Of a stretch of 64,000 bases of DNA, positions 8,974 through 51,421 are shown piece by piece. The stretch comes from Symbiodinium sp. CCMP2592 (Eukaryota > Sar > Dinophyceae > Suessiales > Symbiodiniaceae). A program made the position numbers and the translations under genes. The DNA lies in assembly GCA_905221615.1 (NCBI GenBank), contig CAJNDT010006016.1, positions 180,001-244,000 on the forward strand. The letters are read 5' to 3'. The notes beneath the pieces are model-generated. The model saw only the letters and a list, made by a program, of their open reading frames with translations, had not been told where the DNA came from and did not search any database. How positions within the stretch are numbered: position 1 is the stretch's first letter; each line of letters opens with the position of its first letter.

Positions 8974-9222
8974 TCAGGCTATCAGAAAAACGAAATCCTT
9001 TGCGGGGCGCTTTTCTGCGATCTGCTCGACAACGAACAACGGCCGCATACTAAACGCGAGCACCTGCACCAAGTCTTTGGGCTCCGAAATTTCCGAAGAT
9101 GAAACGCACTGGGCCTCTTCGAGGTGCCCGAGAGCCGAGATGATGGAATTGACACCAGTGATATCCACCACCTCGCGAGAAGCGCACGGAAAGCGCCTTT
9201 GGGCTTCATCAGGTCGTTGCAC
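8974..9222 (-). CDS. Exon-like segment, hypothetical
   Basis: Open frame closed by TGA at 8974. The convincing part reads EVVDITGVNSIISALGHLEE, then AQCVSSSEISEPKDLVQVLA and MRPLFVVEQIAEKRPAKDFV. The first codon of the open stretch is GTG, so this is an exon rather than a whole gene, and the true left edge may be an acceptor near 9180. Not recognised. Probably the same gene as 9379-9609, lying downstream of it. Confidence 0.5.
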   Translation of the reverse strand: MQRPDEAQRRFPCASREVVDITGVNSIISALGHLEEAQCVSSSEISEPKDLVQVLAFSMRPLFVVEQIAEKRPAKDFVFLIA

Positions 9223-11636: not shown

Positions 11637-11896
11637 AAGGCTCACTGATTCACTCCCTCTCTTTTCTCTCAGCGGAGCGAGGGTTTTGTACTAGGAAAGA
11701 CTTCGCACACGAAGGCTCCACCCGGATTTGCTTCCACCTTTACAAGTCATCACCGATGGAAGCATTACAAATCTTACAAGTCTTGGATAGGGGGCTACTG
11801 CAGCAAAAGTCTGTGGACTGTAGACACCAATCCAAGGCGACTACTTTTACAATTTAAGCAAGTAGGCAAGGTACAAAAGAGCTTGCCCCCTTATCC
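11637..11896 (-). repeat. Split direct repeat B2 (element 3' end)
   Basis: 260 bp identical to 12090-12349 at an offset of 453 bp. The outer edge follows ggttc in the flank. The short frames inside it are duplicated with the repeat and are not genes. Confidence 0.95.
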
Positions 11897-12015
11897 GATC
11901 CGGGGAGCACCGTGGCAAGAAACAGGAAAGAAACTCAAAAGCTGTAGCGGCCGCAAAAGCTGGTGTACGCTTCTCGAAGGCGAACAGCAGCCGGCCTGTG
12001 GGTGGCGAGGGAGGG
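11897..12015 (-). other. Spacer between A2 and B2
   Basis: 119 bp unique within the window. It is GC-rich with cggccgcaa and ggccggcctg-like motifs. It separates A2 from B2, whereas the simplest form of this architecture would have them adjacent. Confidence 0.7.
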
Positions 12016-12090
12016 TGAGCAGAAACCAGCGACTACACGAAAGAGGTTTCGCTCAAGTTCGCCTTAACACACGTGAACACGAATGATCAA
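12016..12090 (-). repeat. Split direct repeat A2
   Basis: 75 bp (tgagcagaaaccagc ... gaatgatcaa) identical to 18946-19020. It abuts B1 with a 1-base overlap, so gatcaa/aggctc is the predicted joint of the circular intermediate. Confidence 0.95.
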
Positions 12091-12349
12091 AGGCTCACTG
12101 ATTCACTCCCTCTCTTTTCTCTCAGCGGAGCGAGGGTTTTGTACTAGGAAAGACTTCGCACACGAAGGCTCCACCCGGATTTGCTTCCACCTTTACAAGT
12201 CATCACCGATGGAAGCATTACAAATCTTACAAGTCTTGGATAGGGGGCTACTGCAGCAAAAGTCTGTGGACTGTAGACACCAATCCAAGGCGACTACTTT
12301 TACAATTTAAGCAAGTAGGCAAGGTACAAAAGAGCTTGCCCCCTTATCC
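12090..12349 (-). repeat. Split direct repeat B1
   Basis: Internal copy of B, identical to 11637-11896. The last six bases of the tyrosine recombinase gene, including its stop codon, lie inside it. Confidence 0.95.
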
Positions 12350-13327
12350 ACGTCCCCTAGCAGTCATTCTATGATCAAGTCGCTGGCGTTCAAAGTAGCG
12401 GGAAAAGAACTGCTGGAGAGGCGGTTTGTGAACGTCATATTGCATTGAGGCTAGCTGGGCCAATCCGTCGTTGATGTAAATTCTCACCGTCCGGTCGGAG
12501 GCCCACCTGCCCAAGAGTTTGACTTTGTCTAAGCTGGTGCCTTTGCGAAAAAACATAGTAGCCCCGCCTCTGCGGAGGCTGTACGGCCTGAATGCCCAAG
12601 CATCCAGTCCGAGCTCTTGCAAGGCTGCAGCAAAGTCACGTCTAAACTGGTATTCTGACGCCACCAAAAACCGAGTGGAGTTAGAACGCTCCTTCCATGC
12701 CTTCAAACGGGCACAAACTGGGCCAACTGACAGAGTGACTGAGTCACTGGCGCCGACACGCTGGGATGTTTTAGTGGCACCCAGGTTCAACACAGCACAA
12801 CTTGCCGACGGAGAGACGTCAACGTGACTGCTTTTCAAAGCAAGGAGCTCCCCTGTTCTGAGAACTCCGTAGAACGCAACTTCCAACGCCAGAGAAGTGT
12901 CTGGGCGTTGTTTCGAAAGAAAGTAACCACAAAGGGTCTGCAAAAGGTCCTCTGGTAGAGGTGGTGCTCTTTGCGGAACCTCATTGCACTGCCAGGTTTT
13001 GACGAGTCGCCACGAGGAACACAAGGTCCCTCGAAGTCGGGGGCGCAAGTCCTGTAAACCCGACAACCCATCGGTAGCCAGAGAAAGGCTTTCGCCTTCC
13101 TCCCAAAGGTGCTCTATGTAATCAGAAAACAAGTCATCAAGCTGGCTTCCCTCATCGGGAACACGAAGGCGCCGGACTTGACAGAAAAGGTAGAAACTGC
13201 GCAAGGCTGATTGGTACCGCTGTCTAGTTTTTGGCTTGACTGTGTTGGCTCGTAGAGTCCCCAAAGCTTGTCGGGACACTTTCCGTTCTTCTCGCGTACG
13301 CCCGGCCACAATGGTCATTTTAACCAT
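12344..13327 (-). CDS. Tyrosine recombinase of the retrotransposon
   Basis: A 327-aa integrase that would insert a circular cDNA by Tyr-mediated strand exchange. An N-terminal SAM-like DNA-binding region (about residues 25-115, KPKTRQRYQSALRSFYLFCQ) precedes the catalytic domain. Visible catalytic residues: Arg157 (YGVLRTGELLAL), Lys186 region (GATKTSQR), Arg252 in YSLRRGGAT, Trp275 (LLGRWASD) and nucleophile Tyr284 (VRIYIND). The first position of the HxxR box is Tyr249 in place of His. Two starts are possible: ATG at 13327, or the ATG three codons in (13318-13316), which overlaps the Pol stop as ATGA. The second mirrors the gag/pol junction and is attractive (324 aa). Confidence 0.93.
   Translation of the reverse strand: MVKMTIVAGRTREERKVSRQALGTLRANTVKPKTRQRYQSALRSFYLFCQVRRLRVPDEGSQLDDLFSDYIEHLWEEGESLSLATDGLSGLQDLRPRLRGTLCSSWRLVKTWQCNEVPQRAPPLPEDLLQTLCGYFLSKQRPDTSLALEVAFYGVLRTGELLALKSSHVDVSPSASCAVLNLGATKTSQRVGASDSVTLSVGPVCARLKAWKERSNSTRFLVASEYQFRRDFAAALQELGLDAWAFRPYSLRRGGATMFFRKGTSLDKVKLLGRWASDRTVRIYINDGLAQLASMQYDVHKPPLQQFFSRYFERQRLDHRMTARGRG
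13315..13318 (-). promoter_or_regulatory. pol/recombinase ATGA stop-start overlap
   Basis: On the minus strand aaaATGAcc: TGA ends Pol and the overlapping ATG is codon 4 of the longest recombinase frame. Same arrangement as at 16866-16869. Confidence 0.75.
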
Positions 13328-16300
13328 TTCTTCTTGACCCGAGCGCGACGGCTCGGCCGATCGGCCGGGTTGGAGTCTGTATGGACGTACGCGATGAACG
13401 GCTGAAGTCCCGTAGCCAAGATCAAAGATGACACGCGGTACAAAAGAGATTGCAACTTGCGGGAGCTAGACCGTCCCCGCCGTAGAAGATGAAGACACAC
13501 CATACTGTCAGTCAAGTGGACAAAGCGAATTCGGATTTGCCGCAGTCGCAGGACTCGCCAACGCAGGGCCGTATACAATGCACGAAGTTCCAGTCGATTG
13601 ATGTGATCGCCGGATTTGTCCGGCCATCGCCACCCGCAGATTTCCCGCCAGGACCAGAGGTTGGCAGGAATGGTGTTGCGGAACCGCTGCTGCGATCGAG
13701 CATCGCTGGACATCTGCAACATGATATCCTGGCCCTTTGACGACATGAGGGTACTCAACTTGTGCGTGAGTGACTCGCCACTCCCTGGCGGTGCTCGGAG
13801 ATTCCTTCCAAGGCTATGCCACGAAAGTAAGCAATCTCCCTGAGGAGGGCGATCACGGAACAATGTATCAAGCAACCCTTCCAAGGTCTCGACAAGGCAC
13901 AACTTCAAAGGGGCCAACAACTGAAGAAGCAGGAATCCAACCACCGCAACACTCGAGGAGTTTCCGATAAGGTTCAGACGAACGGTCTCAAGATGCCGTT
14001 TGCAGCTCTTTGCTTCGGACTTCGGCATACAGTTGGAGGTATACCCAAGTGGATATCCCATAGCCCGTTCTCTCTCGGAGATGCTGGCAGGGCGGGGCGC
14101 TTGAGTATTGTGCCAGAGGACATTGCGGTCACAATATTGGTATGGCGGGAACCGATGTTCATCCTCGCGCCATCTCTGAAGCTCATGGGTTTGGCATCTG
14201 CCCGCTCCTGCAGGGTAACGTGAGGGTTGCACTGAGGGCTGCGCGGTGGTGAACGTCTGGAATGTGGTGACGTCGTCATGGAATTTCCACCCGGGCTCAA
14301 GGATGCCAACGGCGTTCAAATCAATTTTGAACTGAACCTCGCCGTAACTGGTCGAATGAGAGTTCGGAGGAGGATAAAGCAAAATTGACTCCGAGCCTTC
14401 CAGTGGCCAGTCAAACCAATACAAGCGATCACGTCGAGTGGGCGAGATACCAGAGGCTGGAATCATGTAAGGCAGCACTTCGGCCTGCTTGGTGTAGGCA
14501 CCCCTGTCTTTGGCACTCATGCTGAAAACACTCTCTTGCAAGAAGTGGACTTTGGTCCAAGTGAACGCCTTTTCCAACATGCGAACAATGGGCTTGACAT
14601 AGACATGCAGAGAGTTTAACGGCTGTCCATCAATCTCTGCTTGGTCCTGTTTGCCGACAGAACTCACGCCCTGATAAGGTGGCCCTGCGCCGACTATGAC
14701 AATCTTTGCAGAAGACGCCTTTGCCGCCCATTTTTGGCAAAGATCTGGCGTAATGTCCTCAACTTGATCCACAAACTCCACGTTTGGGAACGCGCTTTCA
14801 ACAACACGCCGGGCCTCGGGGTTGGTCTCAACTGAAACATGAAGGCATATCCTAGCACGAATGGCCTCCAAAGACACTCTGAGACCCGACACCCCATCGA
14901 AGAGACCAACGCAAACCACACCACCTTCCGGGACTTCGTGTAATGTTTCACCCCTGAAGGGAAGTGCAGCGACACTGGCGCCAAACTGAGTCACTCCATC
15001 TGATGCACAGACGCCGCCCCCCAACATTGACGCATCACTCGCAGTTGCAATGTCTGAACAAGGTGCTCGGAAATCGAAGTGACCGAGAGGCAACAAGCAC
15101 AGGAACATGAAGAGTTCCGATTTCACCGCTCCTGGAATAGCCAATCTTCCCACTCGCTGCCCCTCAAAGCTCTGAATAAACTGCCAAACATAGTTGAGAC
15201 AGCTCATCAAAGGCCTGCGAAACATGGAAAAATAGACTAAACCTCCGGCGACAATGCGAATCTCTTTCTGGCTGCAGCTGCCCTTCCTAAGCAAGGAGAG
15301 TGCTGCGCTCACATACTTCCCCAATTTCTCCGCCTTGGGGCGACCTGTGCCTTCTATCCCATCAATGTCGGCCCCTTGCATCTCGGCACGGCTTTGCTGT
15401 TTGACAGATTTCTTTGCGTTCAAAGGAATTCCGGTTTGCTGATAAGCGGCAATCAAGGGACTGACATCATCGGAAACACGCCCTTCAAGTAAAGGCACAA
15501 AGCTGGGAGACACTTTCTCCAAAACATCAAGGTTGTCAAGATACACGCGCCAAGCAGGGTTCGAAAGAGTGAAGCTTCTGTCCTTGCGAATCTCGGAGTA
15601 CCCCAAGACTCTGGACGGTGACCCTTGAACACGGCTCAGAAAATTACGGTGGAGATGCTGTGCTATACCGACACTGTTCAAGAACCCCATAGGAAGCACT
15701 TTCGCAGCGAGGTAACATGGTTCATCCACTCCAGGGGGCACCAGATCTGACGGCACCGGTTTGTTGAACGTCAAGAATGGGAGCCAACTCTCAGGCAGGT
15801 TGAAGACATAAAAGAAGCATCGGACATCCTCACTAGAGATTATCATGTCTTCATGTGGGTGAAGCTGAAGAGCATTCATCTGATGCAGGAGCGGCAAAGT
15901 GCCGACATCACCCTCCACGTTGAGGCAAAGGCTGTTGTATGGAATGAGATTCATGATCAACCTGTGCACACAAACTCCCTCGTGAAGCTCTCCTTTTTCA
16001 ACACCGAAAAGACCATTCTGTACCAGATGGCCCCCTGCGCGAGCAACTGCGGAATGAGGAATGATGGATACCAGATTGTAGCGAACTAAACCATGGCAAA
16101 GTTCAGGCCAATGTGACTCTTCAACCATCACCCTGGAGCTACGAACCCTGGTAGACTCCCATCCCGGTTTGAGGTACTTCTCGGGGTGTCTCAAAGCGTC
16201 TAGAACACCCCCTTCTGCCAAATCCACCGCGGGAATCTTCCCAATCGCTCCGTAGGGGAGAGCAGGCTCCAAGTTGGCCCACGTTGTCCACTTTGCTGTG

Positions 16301-16869
16301 CGGACTTCCTCACCCCCATAGCTCAAAGTTCGTGTACTGAGAAACTTACTCCAATCAAACCGTTCAACATCAAAGCGATGTTTCAGGAATACCTGCACTC
16401 TGCCTTCAAGGTACTCCAGAATCTGACGTTGAATAGGTGATGCATTCCCAATCGTGACGCTCCCATGCCTCCCAGCATGTAAATAGTTGAGCCCACTGAC
16501 AACCAGATAGAGCCATACTGGCACATAGTCTTTCTCGTCTACGTGCTTCTGCAGTGCACTCTTTCCGGGCAGGGGCAGGGGAAAAAGGTCTCTCTTCCTC
16601 TGTTCTTTCTCCCCTGCCGTCGTCTCCTCCTCAACTCCGCTGGAATGTAAAACCAAATGCGATAAACCACAATCCACACTGCCCAGAATCCCACTCAAAA
16701 TCACGGCACTCAAGGACAACGAATCGCAAGGAAGCTGCAACCAGTCTTGAATCTGACTGACCAAGTCGGGCCTTGACGTTGAAGCCCCTTCCATAGGGGC
16801 CCCTCCTGACAAGCCATCGCGATCAGGAAGGGAAAAGATTGGGCCATCGGCCCGCGCACCCCCCTTCAT
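13315..16869 (-). CDS. Pol: RT - RNase H with inserted DNA methyltransferase
   Basis: 1184 aa from the ATG at 16869-16867; upstream open codons in this frame only shadow gag. RT lies about residues 240-520: Asp348 in motif A (SEDVRCFFYVF), motif B (LPMGFLNSVG), motif C YLDN at 443-446, with Asn in place of the second Asp. RNase H begins with Asp612 (TASDASMLGGG) and resumes with Glu1094 (INRLELRAL), Asp1121 (HLTDSMVCL) and Asp1170 (SNPADRPSR). Between these halves sits a C5-methyltransferase-like domain, about 650-985: motif I (GLFDGVSGLR, Asp658), motif IV (GAGPPYQG, Tyr732 where the catalytic Cys is expected), motif VI (LQESV, Glu779), motif VIII (PTRRDRLYW), motif IX (SERERAMGYP) and motif X (NLIGNSSSVAVV). 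No protease was seen. The stop TGA overlaps the second ATG of the recombinase gene. Confidence 0.93.
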   Translation of the reverse strand: MKGGARADGPIFSLPDRDGLSGGAPMEGASTSRPDLVSQIQDWLQLPCDSLSLSAVILSGILGSVDCGLSHLVLHSSGVEEETTAGEKEQRKRDLFPLPLPGKSALQKHVDEKDYVPVWLYLVVSGLNYLHAGRHGSVTIGNASPIQRQILEYLEGRVQVFLKHRFDVERFDWSKFLSTRTLSYGGEEVRTAKWTTWANLEPALPYGAIGKIPAVDLAEGGVLDALRHPEKYLKPGWESTRVRSSRVMVEESHWPELCHGLVRYNLVSIIPHSAVARAGGHLVQNGLFGVEKGELHEGVCVHRLIMNLIPYNSLCLNVEGDVGTLPLLHQMNALQLHPHEDMIISSEDVRCFFYVFNLPESWLPFLTFNKPVPSDLVPPGVDEPCYLAAKVLPMGFLNSVGIAQHLHRNFLSRVQGSPSRVLGYSEIRKDRSFTLSNPAWRVYLDNLDVLEKVSPSFVPLLEGRVSDDVSPLIAAYQQTGIPLNAKKSVKQQSRAEMQGADIDGIEGTGRPKAEKLGKYVSAALSLLRKGSCSQKEIRIVAGGLVYFSMFRRPLMSCLNYVWQFIQSFEGQRVGRLAIPGAVKSELFMFLCLLPLGHFDFRAPCSDIATASDASMLGGGVCASDGVTQFGASVAALPFRGETLHEVPEGGVVCVGLFDGVSGLRVSLEAIRARICLHVSVETNPEARRVVESAFPNVEFVDQVEDITPDLCQKWAAKASSAKIVIVGAGPPYQGVSSVGKQDQAEIDGQPLNSLHVYVKPIVRMLEKAFTWTKVHFLQESVFSMSAKDRGAYTKQAEVLPYMIPASGISPTRRDRLYWFDWPLEGSESILLYPPPNSHSTSYGEVQFKIDLNAVGILEPGWKFHDDVTTFQTFTTAQPSVQPSRYPAGAGRCQTHELQRWREDEHRFPPYQYCDRNVLWHNTQAPRPASISERERAMGYPLGYTSNCMPKSEAKSCKRHLETVRLNLIGNSSSVAVVGFLLLQLLAPLKLCLVETLEGLLDTLFRDRPPQGDCLLSWHSLGRNLRAPPGSGESLTHKLSTLMSSKGQDIMLQMSSDARSQQRFRNTIPANLWSWREICGWRWPDKSGDHINRLELRALYTALRWRVLRLRQIRIRFVHLTDSMVCLHLLRRGRSSSRKLQSLLYRVSSLILATGLQPFIAYVHTDSNPADRPSRRARVKKKWLK
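16866..16869 (-). promoter_or_regulatory. gag/pol ATGA stop-start overlap
   Basis: On the minus strand cccaATGAagg: TGA ends gag and ATG opens Pol in the next frame. This suggests coupled termination-reinitiation rather than a slippery-site frameshift; no heptameric slip site was seen next to it. Confidence 0.8.
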
Positions 16870-18260
16870 TGGGAGGGTCTGGTTGGCTCCACTTTGGCAG
16901 CTGGCGTCTTGTCCCCTTTCCAACCGCCCTTGCGCCATTCCCCTTTCTTTCCCTTGTCGCCTTTGCCCTTTCCAATCTCCATCGCCGCCCAAGGCCGCCC
17001 CTTTCCTGTATCCCTCTTGGCTTTCCAATCCTGCCTGAATTCTCGAACGGCTCCTTGGGCTTCGGCCACGCTGGTTAGCTTCTCGCTGTCTAGGGGTACC
17101 AACTCCAAATTCTGTGCCACACTCCAACTGGCCCCGCCGACTACCATCTCTATGGCTTTGATTCTCTGCGTGAGTATGTCTAATCCTCCCAGTATGTCCC
17201 TTTGAATCAAACGATCCGCTACGGTCCCCAAGGTGACCAACTCCCGCTTTTGGGCAGCGGACATCCCTTGCATCGTCACATGTAGGCGCAAATACTTCAG
17301 GAATAGAGGCAACACTGTCTGATCGCTCATCTCTCCTGCATGCTGTACCAACAGTCGAGACATCTCGTCCAAGGCGTGCCTCGTCAAAAGACCTGGATGT
17401 TTCCTCGCTAGTTGTTTGACTCGGTGACCTTCCTTGAAAGGATGCCCCGAGTCCTGGGAGTCTAATGATACCCCGCTGCTGCTGTTCCCACTCTCGCTGC
17501 TGCGGCTGCTGTGACTGGAATGCTCGGCTCGGGTGCGCTTCTTGTCTTTGCGACTCTTCTTCTTGCTCTTCTTCTTTCGCTTCTTTAGGATACGTCGAAC
17601 ACTTTGGCGTGGATCTAGGGGTCCGTCCTCGAAAGTGGCGCTGCCCTTCTTGATGGATGCGCGAACATCCATGCCCGCAGTGACTACGGGTTTGGAGCCC
17701 TTGGGGGCCTCTTTCTCTGGAAACCTGCTCAAATCGGCTAGCTCTTTCTCTAGCCCTCCGGCCCCCTCTAGACCCACTGGAAGCTCGGCAACGTTCAATG
17801 CCCATGGAGCGGAGCTGTCCTCCTTGACGACCGTGAGGCCGTGTATCCCTCCTGTTGACATCCCGTGTTTCGGGCAACCTACGGGGCAGAGGTGGACGGT
17901 TATCTCTGGAGGATACCCTGACGTGTGACATGACTCCGACCACTGCTTGAGATCTGTATTGTCTGTACCACGGAGCAACAGGGTAGCAACGTATCCAGCT
18001 TTGCCCAAAGTGATATACTCCAGGCGGCCTGAAACGTTGCAATGTTTTCCCCAATAATCCCCTCCGAACTGGTAGACTTCGCCGAACTGCCAGAAGCTCA
18101 ATGGAAGGACTGATACTTCTTGAGTTTTTCCAGCCTCGAATCGGCCCTGGTAGTTGATGAACTTGCGTACTCTTTTACCCGTACCGCCACCTAAAGAAGG
18201 GGACCGTACAGGTTTTCGTGAACGGGAGCGTGAAGCTGGTCGTCTAAGAATGCCGCGCAT
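16866..18260 (-). CDS. Gag-like structural protein
   Basis: 464 aa from ATG at 18260-18258, with the stop TGA (16868-16866) overlapping the Pol ATG. It starts with an Arg/Ser-rich stretch (RRPASRSRSRKPVRSPS). A possible metal-binding cluster CPVGCPKHG lies at 125-133. Residues 221-245 are a lysine/arginine-rich, nuclear-localisation-like run (KKRKKKSKKKSRKDKKR), followed by a Ser-rich linker to about 270. A helical region at about 280-395 could mediate self-assembly. The C-terminus (about 433-455) is GKGKGDKGKKGEWRKGG, suited to RNA binding. Its position before Pol and its basic character support a Gag role; there is no canonical CCHC knuckle. Confidence 0.8.
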   Translation of the reverse strand: MRGILRRPASRSRSRKPVRSPSLGGGTGKRVRKFINYQGRFEAGKTQEVSVLPLSFWQFGEVYQFGGDYWGKHCNVSGRLEYITLGKAGYVATLLLRGTDNTDLKQWSESCHTSGYPPEITVHLCPVGCPKHGMSTGGIHGLTVVKEDSSAPWALNVAELPVGLEGAGGLEKELADLSRFPEKEAPKGSKPVVTAGMDVRASIKKGSATFEDGPLDPRQSVRRILKKRKKKSKKKSRKDKKRTRAEHSSHSSRSSESGNSSSGVSLDSQDSGHPFKEGHRVKQLARKHPGLLTRHALDEMSRLLVQHAGEMSDQTVLPLFLKYLRLHVTMQGMSAAQKRELVTLGTVADRLIQRDILGGLDILTQRIKAIEMVVGGASWSVAQNLELVPLDSEKLTSVAEAQGAVREFRQDWKAKRDTGKGRPWAAMEIGKGKGDKGKKGEWRKGGWKGDKTPAAKVEPTRPSQ

Positions 18261-18314
18261 AAAATCCTGATAGACAGTCGGAAAACAACTGACCCTTTTG
18301 GAAACCCCCAGTCC

Positions 18315-18935
18315 TCACTCAAGGTCGTCCGGATAATCCTCCTCTTCGGAGAAATGCTCGTCCTCTTCGTTCACAGTTGGATGTAGCCGGGCCACGTGAA
18401 GGTCAACCCGAGCTTGCTGCCACACTCGCCTGGTCTGCCCTCGATTGTTCTTCTTCCTCCGCTTCGGAGGACGAGTCAAGGGTTCCGCTGGTTCACCAAT
18501 CAGAGATCCAGGCAGCTCAAATGACGGGTTGTTTGCAGCCCCTGAGTTCTCGCTCGGCCGAGCTCGCGGAATCGGCGCTCTGGATGGCGGCGCTGCGGAG
18601 CTAGACCCTGAACCCTTGAACTGAGCACGATCTTCAGGGCCCGTAGAGCTACGTTGGACGACACCCCCCAAACGCAATGTGCTAGCCAGGCTGTCACCCG
18701 GATTCCCAGTGGTTTCACGAGCATACGACCCCCCAGGAGGGCTCTTAAAGACAACCCAGTCGCGGAGTCTGACCTCAGTATCGCGCAAGATATTCAAAGC
18801 ATCTTGCCCACAAGAATCGGGAAGTCGGGAACAAACGCTTCTAAGACGATCTAAAGTACGGCAGACTCCACAACTGTGATTATCGCCGATGGCCCGTAAC
18901 TCTACAGTGAACTTCCGACACCAGGTGCAGGTCAT
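18315..18935 (-). CDS. ORF1: small zinc-finger protein of the element
   Basis: 206 aa from ATG at 18935-18933, the first gene of the element, starting 10 bp inside A1. Cys3, Cys6, Cys22 and Cys25 (CTWC ... CGVC) form a zinc-ribbon-like pair near the N-terminus. The middle is Ser/Pro-rich with a basic run PPKRRKKNNRGQTRR. The tail is very acidic (NEEDEHFSEEEDYPDDLE). It ends 54 bp before gag. It could be a nucleic-acid-binding accessory or a second Gag component; no named family was recognised. Confidence 0.75.
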   Translation of the reverse strand: MTCTWCRKFTVELRAIGDNHSCGVCRTLDRLRSVCSRLPDSCGQDALNILRDTEVRLRDWVVFKSPPGGSYARETTGNPGDSLASTLRLGGVVQRSSTGPEDRAQFKGSGSSSAAPPSRAPIPRARPSENSGAANNPSFELPGSLIGEPAEPLTRPPKRRKKNNRGQTRRVWQQARVDLHVARLHPTVNEEDEHFSEEEDYPDDLE

Positions 18936-18945
18936 TTCTACACCC

Positions 18946-19020
18946 TGAGCAGAAACCAGCGACTACACGAAAGAGGTTTCGCTCAAGTTCGCCTTAACAC
19001 ACGTGAACACGAATGATCAA
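18946..19020 (-). repeat. Split direct repeat A1 (element 5' end)
   Basis: 75 bp identical to 12016-12090. The element ends at gatcaa and the flank continues gggctg. Confidence 0.95.
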
Positions 19021-19220
19021 GGGCTGATGGTGTTCGGTTTGTGTGCTAAGTTCAGGTTCAGGATCAAGAACTTTAACAATTCGCAACGTGGCACCAACAC
19101 CGGCTACGTGTAGGAACTGTCTTGAACCCTCCAAAAAACTTCGAGTTGAAAATGCTCTTGCACACAATGCCTCCAGTCCAAAGCCTGCCCCCAGCTCAAA
19201 CGGAACTTGCTCCCTTTTTT

Positions 19221-20798
<1,578 letters not shown>

Positions 20799-50351: not shown

Positions 50352-51167
50352 TTAGCGCCATTCTTCATCGCGGTCGTAGACGCGGTATCCCAATTCGATG
50401 TGCAGGCAATCTGGGCCGTACTGTTTTAATTGCATTGTGGCCTCCACATAGTCCGCACCCGGAACCTCCTTCAGCAGCATACGCCTCTTCTCATCGCAGG
50501 CCGCTTGATGGATGTGCCGAAAATTAATCAGATCTTGCACGGTCAGCGGTGTTTCAGCGGTGAAGTCCTCCAAGACCTTCGGGACGGGCGAACCCTTCTG
50601 CACCGAGAACATGACCTCCGCACCCACGTGGACCACTGGAGTGCTGCTCTTGATGGTCAACTCGCGACTGCCTTCGTGGAAACGGCTTTTGGATGAAAAG
50701 TAGGGAGGTGCCGGCATCTTGTCTGTCCATTTCCATTCGACCGTCGGATAACCACACATATGCAGCGGCGATCCGAACCAACATCCGATGCTCGAGAGCT
50801 CGCGTGCGATCTGCAGCGCGATTGTCTCGAGCTCGTCTCGCGGCACAGTCTCACTCACAAGGTTGCCTTTGTCGTCTTCGAGACCAACCATCTGCAGCAG
50901 TGGGCTAAGGTTCAAGGCGATGGCCGTGACTGTGCTGTCAGGCTCCGCGTCTTCGAGCTTCGCAATGACACGGCCCTCAGCACTCAGCAACTTGATATTC
51001 TTGGTGCGCATTCGGGTGGAGACCTGCTCCTTCAACTCCAGTATGGATGACACCTCCGTTGTGTCGAGGATTACATCCCCGTTGACCCCCACGACAGTCA
51101 GCACGCGCGAATCTGGGATCGCATCTGGCTGGCGCGTACGATCCAAGCAGGAGGTGATCACGCCCAT
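50352..51167 (-). CDS. Ubiquitin-like-domain protein, intronless
   Basis: 271 aa from ATG at 51167-51165 in a good context (tcaaccATGGGC). The frame stays open upstream, but that part runs into the family-A MITE at 51327-51421, so this start is preferred. Residues about 17-80 resemble a beta-grasp ubiquitin-like fold: LTVVGVNGDVILDT, LELKEQVSTRMRTKNIKLLS, GRVIAKLEDAEPDSTVTAI. The rest has no family I can name; it includes VEWKWTDKMPAPPYFSSKSR and LINFRHIHQAACDEKRRMLL and ends ELGYRVYDRDEEWR. The absence of introns contrasts with the neighbouring genes. Confidence 0.75.
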   Translation of the reverse strand: MGVITSCLDRTRQPDAIPDSRVLTVVGVNGDVILDTTEVSSILELKEQVSTRMRTKNIKLLSAEGRVIAKLEDAEPDSTVTAIALNLSPLLQMVGLEDDKGNLVSETVPRDELETIALQIARELSSIGCWFGSPLHMCGYPTVEWKWTDKMPAPPYFSSKSRFHEGSRELTIKSSTPVVHVGAEVMFSVQKGSPVPKVLEDFTAETPLTVQDLINFRHIHQAACDEKRRMLLKEVPGADYVEATMQLKQYGPDCLHIELGYRVYDRDEEWR

Positions 51168-51326
51168 GGTTGAGGCTTTATGGTGCCAAGGGCTCCGGGC
51201 TTCGTCGGGCCCTCCCCTTAGATGTTGAAAAAAATTTGCCATTTTGGTCCAGTCATGCCGACTGTGTGCAATCCGCCTAAAGGACCCTCCGAGACCCCAG
51301 CCCTGGACCCTCGACCTCAATAATGC

Positions 51327-51421
51327 AGGGGCCTCAATAATTAGAAAAGGGTTTTGGGGCCCACTATACCACATTATACTAAGGAGCCCCCAAAATGGTA
51401 CTGGTAACTATTTTGGCCCCT
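51327..51421. mobile_element. MITE-like element, family A, copy 8
   Basis: aggggcctcaataattagaa, ggttttggggcccactata, aaggagcccccaaaatggta and ctattttggcccct: the most complete copy of the family. Confidence 0.9.

Follow-up and report, generated by a model that had tools for sequence, protein, structure and literature searches.

The stretch of DNA analysed here, referred to as the window, comprises 64,000 nucleotides of the dinoflagellate Symbiodinium sp. CCMP2592 (contig CAJNDT010006016.1, positions 180,001 to 244,000), and it carries on its minus strand a retrotransposon that encodes both a Pol protein and a tyrosine recombinase (YR). The Pol open reading frame (ORF) contains a reverse transcriptase (RT) followed by a ribonuclease H (RNase H), and within the RNase H there is a Dnmt3-like cytosine-5 (C5) DNA methyltransferase domain, hereafter the methylase, whose catalytic cysteine is replaced by tyrosine. 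The features of the element are collected in Table 1.

Table 1. Features of the window retrotransposon, with positions in the window.
Feature	Positions	Strand	Basis
Whole retrotransposon, 7383 bp	11637..19019	minus	ends set by second copy on another contig
A1 split direct repeat	18946..19025	minus	79/80 same as A2; outer end 19019 from second copy
ORF0, ~206 amino acids, CxxC pairs, between A1 and gag-like ORF	18315..18935	minus	open frame
Gag-like ORF, 464 amino acids	16866..18260	minus	open frame
Pol ORF, 1184 amino acids	13315..16869	minus	open frame
RT, residues ~290-590 (D348; YLDN)	15100..16002	minus	motifs A, B, C aligned over 15 rows
RNase H N-terminal piece, residues 597-622, Asp612	15004..15081	minus	profile of insert-less relatives, positions 2-27
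Nested Dnmt3-like domain, residues 650-985	13915..14922	minus	Pfam, PHROG and PDB profile matches
Codon of residue 732, Tyr for motif IV catalytic Cys	14674..14676	minus	TAT; GAGPPYQGVSS
RNase H C-terminal piece, residues 1047-1175, Glu1094/Asp1121/Asp1170	13345..13731	minus	profile positions 55-179, i-E (independent E-value) 1.6e-18
YR, 327 amino acids	12344..13327	minus	Phage_integrase 1.9e-10; PHROG 1 5.6e-18
B1 split direct repeat	12090..12349	minus	260/260 same as B2
A2 split direct repeat	12016..12095	minus	repeat comparison with A1
B2 split direct repeat, element 3' end	11637..11896	minus	repeat comparison; second copy

The presence of RT and tyrosine recombinase in one element is the mark of the DIRS order, and the succession of repeats (A1-ORFs-B1-A2-B2) is the split direct repeat type of PAT, Ngaro and VIPER; inverted repeat pairs of at least 40 bases, as in DIRS1-like elements, were not found between positions 9000 and 20500. 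A second copy (L009/L063, where numbers with the prefix L denote copies or lineages of such elements in the same genome) is present on contig C4079, with a Pol 99.8% identical to that of the window and with its own B repeats 98.9% identical. It matches the window from TGATC (19019) to GCCTT (11637) and its flanks differ on both sides, so that it represents an independent insertion and also provides a check on the element ends. The window insertion is itself recent, since the 260 bases of B1 and B2 match throughout and A1 and A2 differ at a single position in 80. No target duplication is seen at 11637-11642 and 19015-19025, and the junction of B1 with A2 (GAGCCTT then TGATC) has the sequence that results when the two outer ends of the element are joined, as would follow from integration of a circle. 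The ORFs are tightly coupled, with the gag-like stop overlapping the pol start codon as ATGA (16866-16869) and with pol and the recombinase gene overlapping at 13315-13327; in the close clade an ATG lies about 10 bases ahead of the pol stop, and its position is shared by five close relatives. An ATGA overlap at this second junction is confined to the window copy and L009, the five sisters having ATGG there, and is thus not a conserved feature. The gag-like ORF has no significant family in the library scans.

The division of the RNase H is evident from its four acidic residues, Asp612 (in TASDAS, which begins at residue 609) standing ahead of the methylase, and Glu1094 (LELRAL), Asp1121 (LTDSM) and Asp1170 (NPAD) behind it. 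None of the four varies among 13 aligned Pol segments representing 12 lineages, which argues against a chance motif match, and the same four occur in the same order, as in DEDD-type enzymes, in 13 relatives whose RNase H is contiguous. An RNase H profile built from 14 relatives lacking the insert matches the window Pol in two collinear pieces (whole-protein E 4e-19), although in the window copy the N-terminal piece scores poorly by itself (i-E 0.36); some sisters do better, with values as low as 0.00025. Two collinear pieces were recovered from 15 of 19 nested Pol sequences, pooling those with a Dnmt domain and those with a second type of insert described below; L020, L024 and L025 yielded the C-terminal piece only, and L015, whose frame breaks there, the N-terminal piece only. 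In all 12 distinct full-length Dnmt-bearing lineages examined the methylase is nested in the RNase H, and the Asp-to-Glu spacing is 463-487 residues in the 11 Dnmt-bearing frames where both residues were located automatically, against 80 and 81 in the contiguous L037 and L038. Comparison by hhalign of 12 nested C-terminal pieces with bacterial and phage RNase HI gave a probability of 76 (E 2.4e-5) and paired Glu1094 and Asp1121 with the Glu and Asp of E. coli RNase HI, whereas the inserts, used as controls, gave probabilities of 1.0 and 0.1. A Pfam scan of the RNase H pieces alone recognised neither, and a PDB search with the C-terminal piece returned nothing but ribosomal S5, with E no better than 0.1. 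As far as sequence can show, the methylase thus lies inside the RNase H: the insert falls after the first (Asp) strand region and before the Glu1094 motif, and the invariant catalytic residues together with young full-length copies suggest that the RNase H fold tolerates it. The RT of the window copy has no Pfam match, and that of the relative L017 matches RVT_1 at 2.6e-3, below the cut-off of that family; RT motif C (residues 443-446) reads YLDN in the window clade, L017-L019 and L024, and YLDD in L020 and L023.

The nested domain scores 2.3e-5 against Pfam PF00145 (24.4 bits, cut-off 22) when the methylase part is scanned alone and only 0.0011, under the cut-off, when the whole pol frame is scanned; it matches PHROG 116 at 9.7e-11. 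Against the PDB, the window methylase part alone finds DNMT3B at a non-significant 0.032, and the best matches of a 13-row profile are DNMT3A and DNMT3B chains (about 1e-18), aligned over profile positions 64-233 plus 341-394. Relatives of the element were not found in general genome and viral contig collections, and the matches listed from phage and plasmid collections (20 of 24 records; 1 of 1) are only C5-methylases of 23-30% identity.

Motif IV of the nested domain reads PPYQ in the window copy, and also in L009, so that the loss of cysteine is not an artefact of one bad copy. A C5 methylase without the motif IV cysteine cannot methylate by the established mechanism, and since the Pro-Cys nucleophile of active enzymes is replaced in the window copy, methylation by the standard route should not work there. 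The state of motif IV was judged by eye from alignments (least surely for L027 and L054) in 27 Dnmt-type lineages, which are those examined rather than a genome total, as the searches score best candidates only; copies at least 93% identical in the compared piece were counted as one lineage, and five pieces (L055, L058, L061, L072 and L074, the last a near copy of L068) gave no state. Pro-Cys is kept in ten lineages (L016-L020, L023, L024, L053, L065 and L075) and the dipeptide is absent from the other 17. Three of these (L027, L028 and L068) have Cys without Pro, two (L012 and L014) have a Cys shifted by one place, and 12 have no Cys at the motif IV place or beside it (L001, L010, L011, L013, L015, L026, L035, L040, L054, L059, L060 and L066), with L035, L040 and L066 carrying a Cys two places upstream, as does the Pro-Cys-bearing L020. 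The full-length open lineages are evenly divided, six with Pro-Cys (L017, L018, L019, L020, L023 and L024) and six without (L001 and L010-L014).

Variability at motif IV is also reflected in conservation over 12 lineages, where the motif IV window scores 0.375, the domain 0.519 and motifs I, VI, VIII, IX and X 0.57-0.72. Among 326 windows of ten residues the motif IV window ranks 28th from the bottom, and the lowest five all begin just past it (737-741), partly through gaps, which were scored 0 in this measure and lower the values next to motif IV. Residues of motifs VI, VIII and IX are invariant whereas those of motif IV are not; motif I, for S-adenosylmethionine (SAM), is also altered in L012, L013 and L015. 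Cys-bearing and Cys-less lineages are interleaved, L016 (PPC) standing beside L010 in a tree of the RNase H C-terminal half (support 96/47), and L020 beside L035 (91/81) and L023 beside L040 (97/89) in one of the RT tail, so that the cysteine was probably lost several times; a single ancestral loss is unlikely, given that L016, L020 and L023 retain Pro-Cys beside these Cys-less neighbours.

Lineages of both kinds have moved recently, as judged from B repeats that are 100% identical both in Cys-less copies (the window, over 260 bases; L010, 263; L011, 262; L013, 336) and in the Pro-Cys-bearing L017 and L020; those of L014 are 99.6% identical, and the stretches examined for L012 and L015 yielded no such repeats. 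The Tyr-bearing source was itself active, as the window copy and L009 are independent insertions with nearly identical Pol proteins and the same altered motif. The ratio of nonsynonymous to synonymous change (dN/dS) indicates that the methylase is still under purifying selection in Cys-less lineages. For the pair L013/L015 it is 0.103 in the methylase body (95% range 0.066-0.150), with 0.060 in the RT, and for the methylase of other pairs in which both members are Cys-less it is 0.123 (0.067-0.201) in L040/L066, 0.111 (0.061-0.185) in L040/L070, 0.184 (0.034-0.509) in L035/L067 and 0.205 (0.046-0.521) in L059/L071. With a sixth pair considered below, the Cys-less pairs span four clades and are not all independent; most other pairwise dS values are saturated, and L010/L016, aligned mostly in another frame, was not used. 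Among nested-clade frames readable across the RNase H segment, none has the segment empty.

A search of the same genome (1.098 Gb) with the RT part yielded 115 places, and among the elements examined there L037-L039 and L041-L052 have a contiguous RNase H and no insert. A tree of the RNase H C-terminal half separates nested from contiguous elements with support 98/97, and a tree of the RT tail does so with 100/100, the latter including only three contiguous rows and 177 retained columns, with the L012 row cut too long. Both trees carry flagged long branches; L029, L030, L035, L036 and L047 were left out of the RNase H tree, L044 was excluded for its near identity to L039, and L050, a long branch, was omitted from the contiguous alignment. 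In a further group of elements (L029-L034 and L036) the RNase H segment that elsewhere holds the methylase is occupied by a stretch rich in cysteine together with another domain, L029, L030 and L036 being cut or broken ahead of the C-terminal piece and L031 broken in two frames. In comparisons made without L031, this second insert is related to the domain that contiguous elements carry after their RNase H (hhalign probability 93, E 3e-7), and homology to the Dnmt domain was rejected (probability 0.1). The apparent motif IV of this second clade, read by eye, has no Cys (SPDR, SPTR, SPPF or SPEA).

An earlier note, made from the letters of this DNA alone, had claimed a C5-methylase nested in the RNase H of a tyrosine-recombinase retrotransposon, and this is supported here for an element of a dinoflagellate. 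Its coordinates and residue numbers are correct, the gene running on the minus strand from 16869 down to 13315, and the positions it gave for Asp612 before the methylase and the other three acidic residues after it are confirmed. It listed the C5-methylase motifs as all present; PF00145 does recognise a C5-methylase between the RNase H residues, but of motif IV only PPYQ remains, with Tyr at residue 732 in place of the Cys. Placing the methylase in the first loop of the RNase H was right as to nesting between the Asp region and Glu1094, although a first loop as such is not demonstrable. The profile searches that it proposed find the RNase H in two pieces with the insert-less profile and the methylase with PF00145, Pfam itself matching neither RNase H piece, and the related copies without the insert that it suggested seeking are the contiguous elements described above. 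The suggestion that the split layout marks a distinct lineage is not upheld, as all 12 full-length Dnmt-bearing lineages share it and these elements fit the published SymbioDIRS-Dnmt3 type.

SymbioDIRS-Dnmt3 elements were described from dinoflagellates as having a DNMT in the Pol ORF, with RNase H mentioned and with two published structures that differ in domain order (de Mendoza et al. 2018, PMC5890265), and the window element, with a Dnmt3-type domain in the Pol of a DIRS-like dinoflagellate element, is of this kind. Shared features reported in the same source are the A-coding-B-A-B repeats, a Dnmt3-type domain with RT in Pol, a separate tyrosine recombinase, purifying selection on the DNMT, and DNMT-less DIRS elements in the same genomes. 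The portions of that text available to us do not state that the DNMT is inside the RNase H, and they report key DNMT residues as conserved in all three families, whereas here 17 of 27 lineages lack Pro-Cys and the window copy and L009 have Tyr. DIRS1-like elements with a methylase likewise combine RT, RNase H and methylase in Pol with a tyrosine recombinase, but in the account consulted their methylase is listed after the RNase H and their terminal repeats are inverted (PMC3266345), and the methylase is a Dam-like adenine methylase (PMC5890265). PAT/Ngaro/VIPER-type elements share the A1 ... B1 A2 B2 split direct repeats, and PMC6681497, in its available part, describes no C5-methylase in them. 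A parallel to the nesting is the P element transposase, in which a catalytic RNase H fold is split by a whole GTP-binding domain (PMC7776569), insertion domains being reported also in Hermes, Tn5 and RAG1; the P element protein differs in being a DNA transposase with its insertion between beta5 and alpha4, rather than a retroelement RNase H interrupted between the first Asp and the Glu. DRM3 and inactive DNMT3B isoforms are similar in being Dnmt3-type proteins described as lacking catalytic activity and yet having a role. These are host proteins and are not known to be nested in another enzyme. Among the titles and abstract beginnings listed by searches of the open-access literature, none pointed to a retroelement with a methylase nested in its RNase H, nor to dead-methylase copies. 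The architecture is, on sequence evidence, real and common to a known family; the novelty lies in a catalytic centre that has been lost while selection on the domain continued, and in an RNase H segment that has been used more than once.

That the methylating centre is lost and the domain nevertheless kept suggests a purpose other than methylation. We favour, with a probability of roughly 0.6, the interpretation that the window element is a recently inserted retrotransposon of SymbioDIRS-Dnmt3 type whose nested, retained pseudo-methyltransferase is probably held by the RNase H fold. Since the families of DIRS, PAT and Ngaro are known and the expected end structure is present here, their cycle is proposed for this element: RT and RNase H would copy the element RNA, a circular complementary DNA (cDNA) would join the B to the A ends, and the tyrosine recombinase would insert the circle without target duplication. 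A Dnmt3-like domain would have entered the RNase H after the portion that carries the first Asp and before the one that carries the Glu, so that the RNase H must close around it. The domain probably began as a cDNA methylase; Cys-less lineages might retain it because the RNase H folds only around a folded insert, and it possibly also binds DNA or an RNA-DNA hybrid, while Pro-Cys-bearing relatives may still methylate new cDNA. A wider proposal, that the methylase is trapped in the RNase H, with its centre lost independently in several active lineages, the insert kept for folding, and the segment perhaps a general cargo port, is put forward tentatively, as something short of an even chance.

Several observations weigh against structural retention of the methylase or against the RNase H assignment on which it depends. 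A dN/dS below 1 is also compatible with a non-structural role, such as binding of DNA or SAM or activation of a partner, and the insert-free elements show that the RNase H does not in general need a methylase, so that any dependence of the fold would be secondary. The value of dN/dS is 0.393 with a range that crosses 1 in L066/L070, both Cys-less, and 1.26 (0.44-7.07), on very few changes, in L068/L069, which have Cys without Pro; the catalytic loop of L013/L015 gives 0.705 (0.129-3.6) over only 12 comparable codons. L015 itself is broken in the RNase H C-terminal half, and the broken copy L060 is without the start of the methylase domain. The assignment as RNase H depends on motifs, on invariance and on distant matches. 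The contiguous RNase H profile has an hhalign probability of 0.3 against bacterial RNase HI and retrieves no chain from the PDB with E up to 10, hepadnaviral RNase H (PF00336) is matched in 3 of 13 contiguous relatives, at best at 0.0043 and below the curated cut-off, and an unrelated phage family scores 0.0085 in one contiguous relative.

Among alternatives, the nested domain could be a working cDNA methylase in the family at large, with the Cys-less copies being dying variants mobilised in trans. Two SymbioDIRS-Dnmt3 domains are reported to methylate CG in yeast (PMC5890265), and Pro-Cys persists in 10 of 27 lineages, with PCQ in two full-length ones (L017, PPCQ; L020, CPCQ). We consider this explanation rather unlikely, as half of the 12 full-length open Pol lineages lack Pro-Cys, the B repeats of the window, L010, L011 and L013 are identical and those of L014 nearly so, and Cys-less pairs in four clades are still under purifying selection. 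Alternatively, the Cys-less domain could be an accessory that binds an active methylase of the host or of another element and steers it to the cDNA, in the manner of DRM3 or DNMT3L. Catalytically mutated Dnmt3-type accessory proteins do exist (DRM3, DNMT3B isoforms and also DNMT3L), and the invariance of motifs VI, VIII and IX while motif IV varies would suit such a role; this is a serious rival, if an unlikely one, given that the SAM motif is altered as well in L012, L013 and L015 and that the proposed interface and partner are hypothetical. Finally, that TASDAS is not part of an RNase H and that a complete RNase H follows a methylase merely situated between it and the RT is highly improbable and already largely refuted, for although the N-terminal piece is weak in the window copy, Pfam recognises neither piece, and L020, L024 and L025 gave the C-terminal piece only, in insert-free relatives the Asp motif precedes the Glu by about 80 residues within a single contiguous domain, most nested sequences match in two collinear pieces, and Asp612 is invariant.

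Retention of the pseudo-methyltransferase by the RNase H fold would bear on how selection on such domains is read. The published case for a part of retrotransposon DNMTs in transposition leans, in the text available, on purifying selection (Ka/Ks <0.2; PMC5890265), and because the same signal is present in lineages without the catalytic Cys, Ka/Ks alone cannot show a methylating role there. Nesting in the RNase H offers a simple alternative explanation of selection on the DNMT, and if entrapment is true, selection on the nested domain is no evidence of methylation. Elements with Pro-Cys, with Cys and no Pro, with no Cys, with no insert and with another insert form a natural series for examining how a captured domain may become structurally indispensable, and the split-RNase H design of DNA transposases would be extended to a retroelement RNase H.

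Some minor observations concern the surroundings of the element and its relatives. An Rfam scan gave 0 matches. The 21-nt dinoflagellate spliced leader has 429 exact matches in the genome (217+212; reversed-pattern control, 0+0), in keeping with a dinoflagellate host, and 0 in the window. At 50352-51374 on the minus strand there is a 340-amino-acid ORF with no Pfam match up to E 1, and a long (CA)n microsatellite lies directly upstream of the element (~19200-19790). Contigs C267 and C2136 each carry one intact and one stop-bearing Pol of L012 type, about 20 kb apart on one strand and in opposite order, and these copies may stem from a single tandem array or from a duplication introduced by the assembly.

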